Virus record (IMG/VR): IMGVR_UViG_3300031521_000030
Coordinates: 33,129-97,128 of that record
Origin: a virus
DNA length: 64,000 bases
Strand: one strand, 5' to 3'
Part shown: one piece after another, positions 2,629 to 58,992 of the stretch
Position numbering within the stretch: position 1 is the stretch's first letter
Layout: the number at the start of each line of letters is the position of its first letter
Position numbers and translations under genes: made by a program
Notes under the pieces: model-generated
Told to the model about the DNA's origin: nothing
Seen by the model: only the letters and a program-made list of their open reading frames with translations
The model's database searches: none

Positions 2629-2919
2629 ATGGCCATGACAAAGCAACGCATCAATCGCGCCATCAAGCACCTCAACTTGGAAATCCAAGGCAACCGGCGG
2701 GATGGTTATTTCTACTTCACCGACCTAACAACCGGGGCGCAAGTTGGGGAGAGCATTATGGTTTGCTACCTCAACCAGCAACCATTGGAGCGGTGGGTCC
2801 AAGATGCAACCTCGGCCAATGCAACCCGCGAGCCCTCCAAGGATGATGGCAAGTGTTGGGAGGATGTCATGGGCTTCCCCTTGCCTACCTACCCGGACGA
2901 TCAATCCTTCCCCCTTTAG
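2629..2919 (+). CDS. YFYF-type small phage protein
   Basis: A 96-residue protein with the core DGYFYFTDLTTGAQVGESIMV and then LERWVQDA, like the gene at 1725-1973. The N-terminal helix is basic. ATG 2629 is preferred, with ATG 2635 as an alternative. Small proteins with this core are common in phage accessory regions and I know of no established function. Confidence 0.65.
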   Translation: MAMTKQRINRAIKHLNLEIQGNRRDGYFYFTDLTTGAQVGESIMVCYLNQQPLERWVQDATSANATREPSKDDGKCWEDVMGFPLPTYPDDQSFPL

Positions 2920-2923
2920 GTGG

Positions 2924-2937
2924 TGCAACTTGTTGCA
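2924..2937. repeat. dispersed dyad site 2 (TT centre)
   Basis: Exact copy 4 bases after a stop codon and 8 bases upstream of the -35 of promoter P3, an activator- or repressor-like position. Confidence 0.85.
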
Positions 2938-2945
2938 GAAACCTG

Positions 2946-2974
2946 TTGCCAATGATTCGGTTAAGGGTTAGGTG
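2946..2974 (+). promoter_or_regulatory. promoter P3, leaderless type
   Basis: TTGCCA 2946-2951, conserved 17-base spacer, TAGGTG 2969-2974, ATG at 2981. It is identical to P1 from -35 through -10. Confidence 0.75.
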
Positions 2975-2980
2975 TTGTGC

Positions 2981-3187
2981 ATGCAAGAAACCACACTCAG
3001 CAAAACCCAAAAGCAAGCCCTTCTGATCTTCGGGGGGAAGGCCCCGGCGGACTCCCTGCAAAGCAATCACTTCCTGAACGGTTTTTCCGCCCTGATTCGC
3101 AAAGGGTTTGCCCGGCAAGAATACGTGGGTATGAGTGTGAAATCCGAACTGACCGAAGCCGGGAAAGCGTTGCTCGCCTCCCTCTAA
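2981..3187 (+). CDS. small winged-helix-like protein
   Basis: A 68-residue protein. An N-terminal helix (KTQKQALLIFGG), a helix-turn-helix-like centre (NHFLNGFSALIRKGFA) and the ending SELTEAGKALLASL resemble the C-terminal part of MarR/PadR-type winged helices. ATG 2981 is chosen over an upstream TTG because it lies at the predicted start of transcription. With a dyad and P3 directly in front, it is a reasonable candidate for an autoregulated DNA-binding protein; this is inference. Confidence 0.6.
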   Translation: MQETTLSKTQKQALLIFGGKAPADSLQSNHFLNGFSALIRKGFARQEYVGMSVKSELTEAGKALLASL

Positions 3188-3198
3188 TAAACCCAACC

Positions 3199-3219
3199 GG
3201 GGGCTGGCCAACGGCCCCC
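3199..3219 (+). terminator. GC hairpin after small regulator gene
   Basis: GGGGGC, 9-base loop, GCCCCC, without a T-run. The flanks copy those of the hairpin at 2404, so it is probably the same module; it may be a terminator or an RNA-end stabiliser. Confidence 0.4.
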
Positions 3220-3238
3220 CAACCCAAACGCTAAAGCT

Positions 3239-3547
3239 ATGCCAAACGAACCACGCCTCCTCATGCCACCCCCACACGCGGACAACCCCTACAAGCGGGT
3301 TGCTGCTATGCTGCGGGGCCTTGCCGCCAGCGCCAAAGCGCACGGGCTAACCATTGCCCTCAATATCCCAACCACCCCGCCGGTTGACTTCCCCCCACTT
3401 AACATTGGCGGGGGCAAAGCATTCACCTCCCCAATGATGGTGGTGCTAAAGAACCGCAGGGACCCCTTGGCACGGTTGGGTGGCCTCATTGAGCATCCAA
3501 TCACCTATTCCTTCCAAATAACCAAAGCCAGCAAACTCAAACCATAA
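3239..3547 (+). CDS. hypothetical protein
   Basis: A 102-residue, Pro-rich protein with a central amphipathic helix (YKRVAAMLRGLAASAKAHG). It runs in one operon with the two following genes (gaps of 3 and 2 bases). No family is recognised. Confidence 0.6.
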   Translation: MPNEPRLLMPPPHADNPYKRVAAMLRGLAASAKAHGLTIALNIPTTPPVDFPPLNIGGGKAFTSPMMVVLKNRRDPLARLGGLIEHPITYSFQITKASKLKP

Positions 3548-3550
3548 GCC

Positions 3551-3967
3551 ATGAAGATCATAATTAGCCCCTCGCGCAAAAAGCCTCTCCGGTTAGCCCC
3601 GGCCAAGCCAACCCCGGACCCCGTTGCATGGCAAGCGAGGCGGGCGATGCGGTTCCTTGCAACCCATCCCCATACATTCATCATGCCGGTGAACTTGCAG
3701 TTGAATATGGGTTGGGATGAATCCATGCGGGTGGGGGCCATTGACTACCTCATTAAGAACGAGGGCATGCGGCTCGCTAGGACGGGCTGGTTGCATTGGA
3801 CACAGGATGACCTCATCTCCCTCCTTTGCTCATTTGACCACTCCGCTATTGAACGGGGCTTCCTCGCCGAAACCATAACCGTTGACCGCCGGACCTTGAT
3901 GGAGATTATGTCCGACTCATCGGCGGGCATCATGGAACGCCTCATTAACCTCATCGAACCCGCCTAA
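3551..3967 (+). CDS. hypothetical protein
   Basis: A 138-residue protein. A basic, Pro-rich N-terminus is followed by a region that could fold as a winged helix (SMRVGAIDYLIKNEGMRLARTGWLHW) and an acidic helical C-terminus. The wing-like LARTGWLHW resembles the ending of the gene at 1970-2185. Function is unknown. Confidence 0.6.
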   Translation: MKIIISPSRKKPLRLAPAKPTPDPVAWQARRAMRFLATHPHTFIMPVNLQLNMGWDESMRVGAIDYLIKNEGMRLARTGWLHWTQDDLISLLCSFDHSAIERGFLAETITVDRRTLMEIMSDSSAGIMERLINLIEPA

Positions 3968-22329: not shown

Positions 22330-23013
22330 ATGTTCAAACTACCCCTTCGCCGTAGGAAAAAGCTCTGTGGAAGACACTCCCTTGTTGATTTGGCTGATTT
22401 GGGTATAATCCTCAATACGGCTACAAATTGGGCTCTGTCTGACCATGGTTACGCCGTGGCCACAATAGGGACCCGCATGCTTTACCTGCACCGTCTATTG
22501 ATGGGGGACATCGTTGAGGGAAAACAGGTTGACCACATCAATGGGGACAAGCTGGACAACCGCCGGGAGAATCTTCGGGTATGCACGGCAAGGGAAAACC
22601 AAGCCAACACGGCCAAGCAAGCCCGCCCAACCTACTCAAAGTTCAAGGGGGTTTGCCAATCGGCGGGCCATTGGCGGGCATATATTGCAACATCGGATAA
22701 GCAGACCCACCTTGGCAGCTTTGCAACCGAAGGGGAGGCGGCCTATGCCTACAACCTTGCTGCCATAGAACGCTTCGGAGCATTTGCAAAATTAAACGAT
22801 GTTCCCGAGGTTCCTCTCAACCGCCTCGACAATAGGCAACCGGGGGCAACCGGCTTCAAAGGGGTAAAGGCACGCACAAATGGGACGTTCATTGCGCGTG
22901 CTAAAGTTAAGGGCAAGGAGGTTCATATTGGGACATTCCCAACCGCAGAGGGGGCAAGCAGAGCCCGCGCCCGCTACATTGGCCGGACAACATTGGTCCC
23001 CTTCACAACCTAA
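22330..23013 (+). CDS. HNH endonuclease with two AP2 domains
   Basis: A 227-residue free-standing homing-type endonuclease. The HNH core is H54 (YLHRLLMG), D68-H69-N71 (VDHINGD), N77 and N81. Two AP2 DNA-binding domains follow, at about 104-155 (FKGVCQSAGHWRAYI) and 174-214 (FKGVKARTNGTFIAR). The last ten residues, GRTTLVPFTT, repeat the MuF ending CRTTLVAFST with different codons. The gene probably entered at the 3' end of the MuF gene. Codon use is less GC-rich than that of its neighbours. Confidence 0.9.
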   Translation: MFKLPLRRRKKLCGRHSLVDLADLGIILNTATNWALSDHGYAVATIGTRMLYLHRLLMGDIVEGKQVDHINGDKLDNRRENLRVCTARENQANTAKQARPTYSKFKGVCQSAGHWRAYIATSDKQTHLGSFATEGEAAYAYNLAAIERFGAFAKLNDVPEVPLNRLDNRQPGATGFKGVKARTNGTFIARAKVKGKEVHIGTFPTAEGASRARARYIGRTTLVPFTT

Positions 23014-23074: not shown

Positions 23075-23608
23075 ATGTTCCGTGTTTGCAAAACCGACGA
23101 CGACCAGCAGATTGCCCCCATCGTGGGGCACCCCAATTATTTTGTGGGCTCTGATGGTCGCGTCTATTCCTGTGCCCCACTGAATGGCCGGGGAGCACCT
23201 CTCCCCTTCTCAAGCAAACGAGAGCTACTCATCCAGCACACCCCCAAGGGTTATTGCACCATAATGGTTGACCGGAAGACTGTGGCGGTCCATTCCCTTG
23301 TTCTTAACCACTTCGTTGGGTCCCCTAAAGAGGGCCAACAATGCCGCCACTTGAATGGCAACAAGGACGATAATGCCATGGGGAATCTTGCATGGGGCTC
23401 CGGGCTGGATCAGCACAATGACCGCGTGCGGCATGGGACAGCACTCATGGGAGTTAGGCACCCCCAAGCAGTTCTGGACCAGATCAAAGTTTGCCTTGTT
23501 CGTCGCCTTCGTGCTCGGAAGTGGTCCCTTCGGGAAATTGCAAAGGCCCTTGGGGTAAGCACTACTCCTATTCGCCATGTTTTCAACGGGGGGTATGCCC
23601 ATGTTTAA
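23075..23608 (+). CDS. HNH endonuclease with protease-like N-terminus
   Basis: A 177-residue protein. Residues 1-13, MFRVCKTDDDQQI, copy the start of the following protease (MFKVCKMDDDQQI). The HNH core is H73 (AVHSLVLNHF), R91-H92-N94 (CRHLNGN), N100 and N104. A helix-turn-helix follows at 150-170 (SLREIAKALGVSTTPIRHVF). ATG 23075 is chosen because it matches the protease start. In-frame starts further upstream exist. The stop TAA lies inside ATGTTTAAG, the start of the protease gene, so the junction is exact. Confidence 0.88.
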   Translation: MFRVCKTDDDQQIAPIVGHPNYFVGSDGRVYSCAPLNGRGAPLPFSSKRELLIQHTPKGYCTIMVDRKTVAVHSLVLNHFVGSPKEGQQCRHLNGNKDDNAMGNLAWGSGLDQHNDRVRHGTALMGVRHPQAVLDQIKVCLVRRLRARKWSLREIAKALGVSTTPIRHVFNGGYAHV

Positions 23609-24158
23609 GGTCTGCAAAATGGATGACGATCAGCAAATCGTCGAAGGCGAAGTCTATGCCCCCAATACTCTCGACACCCATGGCGAGATGATGACGGCGG
23701 ATGCGGTGGAGACTATTTGCCACCGCTTCATGCAAATCCACTCCCTCAAGGAGACGATTGATACGCAGCACAACAATCTTCCCGCCGAATGCTACCCCAT
23801 TGAATCCTTCATTGCCCGCAAAGGCGACCCGGACTATACCGAGGGCGCATGGGTGCTGGCCGTTAAGGTAGAGGACCCAACTTTGTGGGCCTCCGTTAAA
23901 AAGGGGGAACTCAATGGCTTCTCCTTCGAGGCATACGTGAGCAAGCAGCAAGCGATTGTCGAGTTGCAGGTTTTCCCCCAGAGCATAGGGGAAACGGAGG
24001 AGGCCGAGGGCCATGCTCACTTCTTCATTGCCGAGTTGAATGCCGATGGGAAAGTTGTTTCCGGGCGCACAAGCGAGGCCGCCGGACACTCCCACATGAT
24101 AACCAAGGGCACCGCCACGTTGGAAAGTGCTGGACATGCCCATCGTTTTGTCGTCTAA
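23601..24158 (+). CDS. prohead protease, XkdF-like
   Basis: A 185-residue protein. EGEVYAPNTLDTHGEMMTAD, the IDTQHN motif, ESFIARKGDPDY and WASVKKGELNGFSFEAY match the XkdF family of putative phage serine proteases. Such proteases cut scaffold and capsid proteins during head maturation. The C-terminal part has three His pairs (GHAH, GHSH, GHAH). ATG 23601 overlaps the end of the HNH gene by 8 bases, with GGGGGG upstream as a weak ribosome site. ATG 23595 is an alternative. Its first 13 residues are duplicated in the HNH gene. Confidence 0.85.
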   Translation: MFKVCKMDDDQQIVEGEVYAPNTLDTHGEMMTADAVETICHRFMQIHSLKETIDTQHNNLPAECYPIESFIARKGDPDYTEGAWVLAVKVEDPTLWASVKKGELNGFSFEAYVSKQQAIVELQVFPQSIGETEEAEGHAHFFIAELNADGKVVSGRTSEAAGHSHMITKGTATLESAGHAHRFVV

Positions 24159-41203: not shown

Positions 41204-41701
41204 ATGGCCCAGCAAATAGCGCAAACCGAAAAGCAATATCTCACATCCGAACGGGATGTTGTGGACCGCTCCAAGAAATGCACTTGCTGTAAAGTATGGA
41301 AGCCTCGAACTTCGTTCTGCAAAAATAGGGCGAAGTTTGATGGGCTCTCCGGGGAGTGCCGTGAGTGTAGCAAGGCAAGGGTGTCTGCATGGCAAAAAGA
41401 TAATCCCGCGCTAGTCACCGCAAGGAGCATCAAGTGGAATAAGGAGCACCCAGAACGTAGGAAAAGCACACGCCTACATTCCCGTTATGAAATTACCTTA
41501 GACCAGTTCAACTGGCTACTGGCTTCTCAAGGTGGTGGGTGTGCTATTTGCTCCCAAGTGGCCCCTAAAATGGTGGTAGACCATGACCACATCACAGAAA
41601 AGGTGCGCGGCATTTTGTGTCACTCTTGCAACATTGCCATCGGACACTTTCGGGATAATACTCTGCTTTTAACTAAAGCAATTGCCTACCTACAAAAATG
41701 A
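41204..41701 (+). CDS. endonuclease VII-type HNH with tail-protein-X N-terminus
   Basis: A 165-residue protein. Residues 6-22 are AQTEKQYLTSERDVVDR, nearly identical to residues 5-21 of the next protein. A Cys-rich ribbon follows (CTCCK ... FCKNR ... CRECSKAR). The catalytic domain is of recombination endonuclease VII type: CAIC (113-116), VDHDH (125-129), RGILCHSCNIAIGH (135-148). The stop overlaps the next start by 4 bases. The codons are less GC-rich than those of the neighbours, in keeping with a mobile gene. Confidence 0.9.
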   Translation: MAQQIAQTEKQYLTSERDVVDRSKKCTCCKVWKPRTSFCKNRAKFDGLSGECRECSKARVSAWQKDNPALVTARSIKWNKEHPERRKSTRLHSRYEITLDQFNWLLASQGGGCAICSQVAPKMVVDHDHITEKVRGILCHSCNIAIGHFRDNTLLLTKAIAYLQK

Positions 41702-42420
41702 CCATTATTGCCCAAACTGAGAAGCAGTATCTTACCAGCGAACGGGATGTCATAGATAGGGTGTGCTGGGACTTTTATGGATCAACGCAAGGGACCGCCG
41801 AGGCCGTTTATAGGCGCAACACATTCCTGTCCCGCTATCCCGCCGTCTTGCCCCCCGGTTTGGTTATCACCCTGCCGGTGGTGAGCTTGACGGCCCTTCG
41901 CCAAGTGCGGGAGTTGTGGGATTATGGCACCGTCAAGAAGTCGGATGCGGGCCGGGTTGCAGCGACGGTTGACAACCGCCTATCCGCCGCACAAAGCGCG
42001 TTGAACCATTACCGGGCAACCAAGTATTCTCTGCCCGCCTCCGAGGTTGTGGACGATGTAAAGGAACTGACCGAGGCCGAATGGTTGGGCGTCTATTACA
42101 AGACGGCCTCCGGCACTTGGAAACAGGCCCGCATGCACAAGAGCAACCTTCAATTCGAGGGCGATGCGGATAACCTTTCCGTGCGGGTCCAATCCTTGGA
42201 GGAGAGCCTAACCCGGTTCAACCTCATGGAGTTTGTCCCCGCCGGGGCCGCCCGGTTGGAGGTCCAAGATAGCGTCGTTCGCATGGTGTTCGACCGCTCC
42301 AAATTTGCAATGTCCGATGCGGAACTTGAGCAGGTCCTCCGGCCAATGTTCCCGCAATACACGCTTGAAACCTGCCAAGGCGACGTTCAGGTTATTGGCC
42401 CGATTCCCCGCCGGTTCTAA
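41698..42420 (+). CDS. tail protein X-like baseplate protein
   Basis: A 240-residue protein. RVCWDFYGSTQGTAEAVYRRN and RYPAVLPPGLVITLP match P2 gpX-type (LysM-like) tail proteins, but it is much longer than P2 gpX (about 70 residues). The extra C-terminal domain is unrecognised. The first 21 residues contain AQTEKQYLTSERDVIDR, duplicated in the upstream HNH gene with mostly different codons. This suggests the 5' end was replaced when the HNH gene arrived. Confidence 0.8.
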   Translation: MTIIAQTEKQYLTSERDVIDRVCWDFYGSTQGTAEAVYRRNTFLSRYPAVLPPGLVITLPVVSLTALRQVRELWDYGTVKKSDAGRVAATVDNRLSAAQSALNHYRATKYSLPASEVVDDVKELTEAEWLGVYYKTASGTWKQARMHKSNLQFEGDADNLSVRVQSLEESLTRFNLMEFVPAGAARLEVQDSVVRMVFDRSKFAMSDAELEQVLRPMFPQYTLETCQGDVQVIGPIPRRF

Positions 42421-48254: not shown

Positions 48255-48347
48255 CTGACAAGGGCATACCTTTCGCCATAGACTGCCCGGCAATACTCGC
48301 TATGAATCAAACGTATGGGATGGAGTTTTAACCGACTTCATCCCATT

Positions 48348-49049
48348 ATGTTTTCCATGATCATCTACAAGGCAACCAACCTACTCAACGGTCGGGTGTA
48401 TGTTGGCCAAACCATAGGGACACTGGCCCAACGCAAGGGGCAGCATTACAAACAGGCCCGGTATGCAGCAAAGCGGGGGGCACGCCGTTCTGCATTCGCT
48501 AAGGCCCTTCTGGCTTCCCCTGTGGCCGCCTTTGCTTGGGAGGTGGTCGCAACCGCTGGTAACCAGAAGGATTTGGATGCCTTGGAGGACCAGTTTATAA
48601 CCAAGTTTGATTCCATGGTTGAGGGGTCGGGCTACAACCACCGCCGGGGTGGCAATGGCGGTAAAGCATCACCCACGGCAATAGCCAACATGCGTGCAGC
48701 CAAAGTAGGGAAGTGCCCCACTATGGCAACCAGAGACAAACTAAGCAGGGCCAAGAAGCGGCTCCGGGGAAGTCGCCTAAGTATGCGAGCTATGGCCGAA
48801 ATTCGTAGCAACCCTTTAGGACTCTCCCAAACGCAACTTGCTCGAAAACTTGGGGTTGATCCCTCCTACGTGAGCATTCTGCAACGCGGGGTTAAACCCA
48901 AACTTTGCATTTCCCAAGAGCTTAGAGATCGGATAGAGTTCGGCTATGTCAAGCAAAACCCCGAATGCCTAACCCAAGCCCAACTGGCTAAAAAATTCCA
49001 AACGAATACGACCGTGATTAGTTGGATACAGCGCGAGAGGATTATTTAA
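48348..49049 (+). CDS. GIY-YIG homing endonuclease
   Basis: A 233-residue protein. IIYKATNLLNGRVYVGQT is the GIY-YIG start, followed by the conserved Arg region (LAQRKGQHYKQA) and the Glu in LEDQFITKFD. A NUMOD3-like segment (SPTAIANMRAAKVGK) and two helix-turn-helix units (LSQTQLARKLGVDPSYVSIL; LTQAQLAKKFQTNTTVISWI) bind DNA. It sits between chaperone and tape measure genes and shows no terminal mimicry of either. ATG 48348 or 48357 may be the start. Less GC-rich codon use marks it as mobile. Confidence 0.9.
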   Translation: MFSMIIYKATNLLNGRVYVGQTIGTLAQRKGQHYKQARYAAKRGARRSAFAKALLASPVAAFAWEVVATAGNQKDLDALEDQFITKFDSMVEGSGYNHRRGGNGGKASPTAIANMRAAKVGKCPTMATRDKLSRAKKRLRGSRLSMRAMAEIRSNPLGLSQTQLARKLGVDPSYVSILQRGVKPKLCISQELRDRIEFGYVKQNPECLTQAQLAKKFQTNTTVISWIQRERII

Positions 49050-58468: not shown

Positions 58469-58516
58469 ATGAACGACCGAGCAATTCTCATTACGATTGA
58501 CAAGGCAACACCATGA
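58469..58516 (+). pseudogene. DUF2997 5' remnant
   Basis: A strong ribosome-binding site (AGGAGGAAACATT) and ATG open a 15-codon frame, MNDRAILITIDKATP, which stops at TGA. It aligns with the start of the intact DUF2997 protein downstream (MQDQRSILVTIDSVGRP). It looks like the original 5' end of that gene, cut off by the HNH insertion. Its stop overlaps the HNH start (ATGA), so its ribosomes may load the HNH gene. Confidence 0.7.
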
Positions 58517-58992
58517 AGACCCCGGCGAACCTTGCACAGTCCTTTTGGCCAAGGGTGGCCACCGAGGCCCCTGATAAATGTTGGGCTTGGCTCGGCCAGT
58601 TAAATGATCGTGGGTATGGCGTTACCCAAGTTGGTGGTCGCCTTGGCCTCAACACCCGAGCAAGCCGCATTGGCTTTGCCTTATGGCATGGGGTTACCCT
58701 TGAAACCATAGAGGGCCTTGAGGTTTGCCACACCTGTGACAACCCAAAATGCGTAAACCCTAACCACCTATTCATTGGCACCCACGCGGATAATGTTGCT
58801 GATATGGTAGCAAAAGGAAGGCAAGCACGGGGTATCAAGAATGGTTCAGCTAAACTTACTTGGCCCCTTGCCCGAGAGATTCGGGCGTTGCACAAAACGG
58901 GGGTATATAAACAAAAGCAGTTGTGCCAACGCTTTGGTATAACGCAAGGAACCCTTAACCCACTACTCAACCAAAAAACTTGGAAGGAATAA
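58513..58992 (+). CDS. HNH endonuclease inside the DUF2997 gene
   Basis: A 159-residue protein. HNH core: VCHTCDNPKCVNPNHLFIGT (H73, D76-N77, C80, N82-H85). The C-terminus has a helix-turn-helix (PLAREIRAL; KQLCQRFGITQGTLNPLL). It starts within the stop of the DUF2997 remnant and ends 4 bases before the intact DUF2997 gene. It is related in sequence to the HNH gene at 63301 (shared CDNPxCVNPxHL, AKLT/TKLT). Confidence 0.9.
   Translation: MKTPANLAQSFWPRVATEAPDKCWAWLGQLNDRGYGVTQVGGRLGLNTRASRIGFALWHGVTLETIEGLEVCHTCDNPKCVNPNHLFIGTHADNVADMVAKGRQARGIKNGSAKLTWPLAREIRALHKTGVYKQKQLCQRFGITQGTLNPLLNQKTWKE

Follow-up and report, generated by a model that had tools for sequence, protein, structure and literature searches.

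A putative homing endonuclease cassette with a recoded gene start in a phage tail protein X gene

Described elements that replace gene ends

Mobile open reading frames (ORFs) of fungal mitochondria, which have been reported in atp6 of Allomyces and in atp6, atp9, cox2, and nad3 of Glomus, are the closest described systems (PMC3630166). Similar to the phage cases presented here, they consist of an endonuclease ORF inside a gene, one end of which is duplicated by a foreign version; the native copy beside the ORF matches that of sister species, and the inserted end is 64-81% identical in DNA with a nearly unchanged protein (PMC3630166). The same signature of a native end that matches sisters and a foreign working end was found in three phage loci (L185, L304, and L096), and the window analyzed here (64,000 bases, positions 33129-97128 of a 97,128-base virus record) has the corresponding layout. 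However, the fungal elements are mitochondrial and affect C-terminal ends only (PMC3630166), whereas the phage cases involve both 5' and 3' ends (those of the window being N-terminal), Endonuclease VII (EndoVII) or HNH nucleases, and overlapping start and stop codons.

Another related system is represented by the yeast WHO elements in FBA1, in which homing swaps a gene end and thereby makes a sensitive allele resistant; homology is provided by a duplicated piece of the gene on the far side, and cleavage resistance has been demonstrated experimentally (PMC7282813). These elements differ in having an intein-derived (HO/intein-related) nuclease with a zinc finger, a nuclear yeast gene as the target, replacement at the 3' end only, and non-overlapping genes (PMC7282813). 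The window nuclease, unlike WHO, is an EndoVII HNH enzyme in a phage tail gene.

The homing endonuclease gene (HEG) of the bypass cassette in phage T4 gene 60 is mobA. In this cassette, the spread of a phage HEG is likewise coupled to an alteration by which the target gene may be protected, but this protection relies on an insert of 50 nt that is bypassed in a split gene and involves no synonymous end replacement (PMC5009743). Free-standing phage HEGs are also similar in that, according to the accessible parts of the sources, an HNH nuclease adjoins its probable target gene (PMC2988022, PMC10448857), but they are usually intergenic and convert their flanks, and a captured recoded gene end is not mentioned in the accessible part of PMC10448857. 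The literature searched, the coverage of which was incomplete, yielded no report of cassettes that replace gene ends in phages, or of any that act at 5' ends.

The nuclease and tail protein X genes in the window

A putative EndoVII-type HNH homing endonuclease gene is located at positions 41204..41701 (+ strand), and its product matches Endonuclease_7 (PF02945) with E=4e-22 and 78.4 bits against a curated cut-off of 23.6. The zinc cysteines C113, C116, C139, and C142 as well as D126, H127, H129, and N143 are invariant in an alignment with related nucleases (alignment A1), with both the CxxC and the HNH residues intact. The working copy of the tail protein X gene (41698..42420, +; Phage_tail_X, PF05489, E=2e-12) follows directly, and the nuclease stop and the tail X start overlap as ATGA (41698..41701, +), an overlap also present in L096, L116, L185, and L235.

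The nuclease gene begins with an N-terminal arm (41204..41269, +) that is fused in frame and closely resembles the tail X start. The peptides IAQTEKQYLTSERDVVDR (arm, 41216-41269) and IAQTEKQYLTSERDVIDR (tail X, 41707-41760) are identical in 17/18 residues, and the codons comprise 11 synonymous changes, 6 identical, and 1 non-synonymous change. An earlier sequence-only reading had reported 16/17 residues and about 12/17 differing codons, for which 17/18 and 11/17 were found, and the TCC/AGC and CGC/AGG switches that it pointed out are both present. Given the codon usage of this phage, full synonymous saturation predicts 7.0 +/- 2.0 identical codons, compared with the 6/17 found, and the codon divergence between arm and tail X amounts to such saturation. 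Among 12,539 nearby ORF pairs from the whole 97 kb record, the pair ranked first with a score of 87, followed by a second pair of an HNH nuclease and a host gene (62) and by remaining + strand pairs of at most 50; the match is far above chance. Assembly error is unlikely because a second public contig contains the identical arrangement (100% identity).

Judging from the related nucleases in alignment A1, the nuclease's own domain starts right after the arm. Base composition and codon usage gave little indication of which copy is the older: GC3 at the tail X start (15/29 in codons 2-30) is lower than in the rest of the gene (154/210, p=0.03), yet is not distinguishable from that at other gene starts, and the codon usage of both 18-codon arms is not significant as a polarity marker (z -0.35 and -1.43). 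Moreover, searches of IMG/VR and phage records with tail X and DUF4815 queries returned only the identical contig and distant matches, and no HEG-less relative of the window phage. By analogy with L185, L304, and L096, the fused arm would be the original 5' end of tail X, now serving as the nuclease start, and the start of the working gene (41698..41760, +, perhaps extending a few codons more) would be the recoded replacement.

A second case with a similar layout was identified in the same genome, where a putative HNH_3 homing endonuclease gene unrelated to the EndoVII gene (23075..23608, +; PF13392, E=9e-6) is fused to the captured start of an XkdF-like prohead protease gene (23601..24158, +; PF14550, E=1e-23 on ORF 23577-24158). 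The arm, MFRVCKTDDDQQI (23075..23113, +), matches the diverged protease start, MFKVCKMDDDQQI (23601-23639), in 11/13 residues, 6/10 matching non-Met codons differ, and the nuclease stop and protease start overlap by 8 bases. The nuclease's own domain, as judged by eye, again starts right after the arm. In both window cases, the nuclease thus appears to use the old start of the host gene, because its own domain directly follows the arm.

The window genome also contains three other HEG-like genes, which encode an HNH_3 (22330-23013), a GIY-YIG with HTH (48315-49049), and an HNH protein (58513-58992), and an ORF screen detected no captured gene ends in the neighborhoods of 22330, 48315, and 58513. 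In addition, the near-palindrome TGCAACAAGTTGCA recurs approximately every 3 kb, with 47 strand-wise matches (at most 2 mismatches) compared with 0.66 expected; its sites are at window positions 172, 2924, 4049, 4751, 6901, 9979, 13715, 16810, 19539, 23018, 26988, 30392, 32942, 37082, 41185, 45365, 47736, 51964, 55382, and 60505. The sites inspected are intergenic, and one lies directly before each captured-start nuclease. This repeat resembles an operator, stoperator, or terminator element that is used throughout the genome.

Comparison with relatives that lack the nuclease

The gene behind the L185 nuclease belongs to a family of 74 relatives, including three nuclease bearers, in which the two starts could be compared with HEG-less alleles. 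The L185 nuclease arm shows 90% identity to the first 39 bases of HEG-less L287, whereas the working start shows 62% and the rest of the gene 92%. In L304, which also carries the nuclease, identity to the HEG-less sisters L298/L305 amounts to 97% in the arm, 99% in the upstream 100 bases, 69% in the working start, and 95-96% in the remainder of the gene. The arm is nearer than the working start in 70/74 relatives, and of the four exceptions, three are the nuclease bearers. The foreign tract comprises about 17 codons and has its edge at codon 18 (19/51 differences before vs 1/126 after, p=5e-11); codons 14-18, which lie past the insertion point, are also changed. Phylogenetic trees of the working starts placed L185 and L304 together (support 0.988), whereas those of the gene remainder assigned L185 and L304 to different HEG-less sisters (1.0 and 0.974). 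Furthermore, the foreign start was observed in nuclease bearers only and in 0/71 HEG-less relatives examined. At the level of sequence comparison, it is shown that the nuclease-fused copy in this family is the local native start and that the working gene carries a foreign one. A native left start, a cassette right start, and a sharp right edge are the expected trace of break repair from a cassette-bearing donor.

Polarity could also be assessed in GenBank phage PQ867848 (L096). Its nuclease starts with ATG GCT ACA CTA CTT GAT GTG GTA CAA, four HEG-less Vibrio Zobellviridae start with ATG GCT CAA (GTA or ATC) ACA CTC CTT GAT GTG GTT CAA or close variants, and its working gene starts with ATG ACC TTA TTA GAA GTT GTG CAA. 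Because the nuclease-fused start resembles those of the four HEG-less phages more closely than the working start does, the former is the original copy. The ribosome site before the nuclease also resembles that of the HEG-less Vibrio phages, consistent with retention of the native site. In both PQ867848 and the L185/L304 family, the HEG is present or absent at one site among close relatives.

The sequence-only reading had held that the downstream start was imported from a distant homologue and the upstream one original, and that separate phylogenies of the 5' part and the rest would reveal a donor lineage. The direction of replacement agrees with the L185/L304 family and PQ867848, and the phylogenies, run in the former, did yield different closest relatives for the two parts. 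On the other hand, neither a donor lineage nor a donor homologue of the replacement start was recovered, the nearest HEG-less match in that family reaching 72%. The idea of import was partly supported and right in outline, but it overlooked that the new start would form part of a homing cassette, that 3' ends are affected as well, and that the window contains a second such gene.

An origin without import, in which the gene start was tandemly duplicated at insertion and the downstream copy was then recoded by local synonymous drift or selection, appears unlikely. Constraint on both copies would also yield a matching peptide with different codons, and the missing donor homologue is in line with it; however, L185 and L304 share one common replacement start in spite of their different HEG-less sisters, and the sharp edge beyond the insertion point fits a copied tract. 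Tandem duplication and recoding might still be a possible origin of the first replacement start.

Survey of EndoVII genes

EndoVII loci were sampled from IMG/VR, GTDB genomes, and eight GenBank phages, which provided 223 unique nucleases, and nuclease ends were compared with neighboring gene ends, using mismatched pairs as the null. In approximately 14/223 unique EndoVII genes, the start or end of a host gene occurs on either side of the nuclease, mostly with diverged codons, and about 94% lack such duplication. Anchored N-terminal matches with scores of at least 32 were observed 7 times compared with 0.7 expected. Convincing N-terminal cases outside the window include L116 (MIYGSVCSGIEA, DNA methylase), L185, L096, and L025, with L235 being weaker; a short match in L080 was judged to be due to chance. 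In L116, comparison with relatives did not clearly separate the two copies, the downstream one being, if anything, slightly nearer to them.

C-terminal mirror cases, flush with the stop codon or at most 1 residue off, were found in L010, L126, L209, L063, and L180. For example, the host gene and the nuclease of L010 (2959-3348) both end in TYTITCT followed by the stop, and 7/8 codons differ when the stop is counted. These cases rest on a frame-free scan (3 observed vs 0.00 expected at scores of at least 42) and on inspection, because the anchored C-terminal null is inflated by related loci. Searches with the host genes of L063, L010, L180, L126, and L209 yielded no close relative without a HEG, nor did L096 TubA yield one in IMG/VR. 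Pooling 13 gene-end pairs, 118/133 residues are kept, and 71 of the 118 kept residues have a different codon.

In L034, L039, and L079, the frame-free scan also detected displaced ends that are not in the reading frame of the nuclease. In L079 (~2981-3511), the host-gene end YEKRGILMV, with its stop, overlaps the nuclease 3' end out of frame and shows few codon changes, and this locus is perhaps a young insertion. Besides these, L005, L006 (both ~2700-3790), and L007 (~1480-2610) contain an EndoVII gene between two diverged copies of a gene that we take to be DUF5664-like; they were left out of the case count and possibly reflect the same process on a whole small gene.

The survey bears on two further explanations. 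It is highly improbable that the N-terminal peptide was captured and kept as a functional nuclease part (leader, localization, or regulation): several in-frame arms do equip the nuclease with the host gene's start codon and ribosome site, but the displaced ends noted above lie outside its reading frame, the arms derive from unrelated proteins and from C-termini too, and they match local HEG-less alleles and hence look like leftovers. Hardly more credible is replacement of the tail X start by ordinary, nuclease-independent mosaic recombination: phages have mosaic genomes, in which HEGs are frequently found at the boundaries of exchange (PMC10448857), but the replaced tract begins right at the nuclease in families independent of one another, at 3' and 5' ends alike, and the foreign start of the L185/L304 family is confined to nuclease bearers.

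Proposed mechanism and implications

Taken together, it is quite probable that a homing endonuclease cassette has entered the start of an essential structural gene while carrying a recoded, presumably uncuttable replacement end. First, the nuclease would cut, near codon 22, a tail X gene that contains no cassette. The break would then be repaired with a co-infecting phage that bears the cassette as the template, so that the nuclease gene would be copied in together with the diverged tail X 5' tract. The old start of the recipient would stay on the left, joined to the nuclease, and would provide it with a start codon and a ribosome site. Sequence comparison shows this outcome in the L185/L304 family, and by analogy it may apply to the window. 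The replacement tract would restore a full-length tail X gene that overlaps the nuclease stop by ATGA, as the observed layout shows. With its target recoded, the restored gene would presumably no longer be cut and would recombine poorly with the arm. The element may thereby act as a natural cut-and-rescue element, both cleavage and resistance being predicted from sequence.

More broadly, these cases somewhat favor the existence of a recurrent class of phage homing elements that carry a recoded, cleavage-proof replacement for either end of the essential gene that they enter. EndoVII and HNH_3 nucleases would each have given rise independently to such a natural cut-and-rescue drive, and the versions known before were fungal and confined to 3' ends. 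Such a model explains the puzzling pattern of the same peptide encoded by different codons and implies that a resistant replacement end allows phage homing genes to invade essential coding sequence without the help of splicing, which makes them a natural counterpart of engineered gene drives of the rescue type. Moreover, phage structural genes can contain short foreign tracts at the 5' or 3' end, with consequences for both phylogeny and gene-start annotation.
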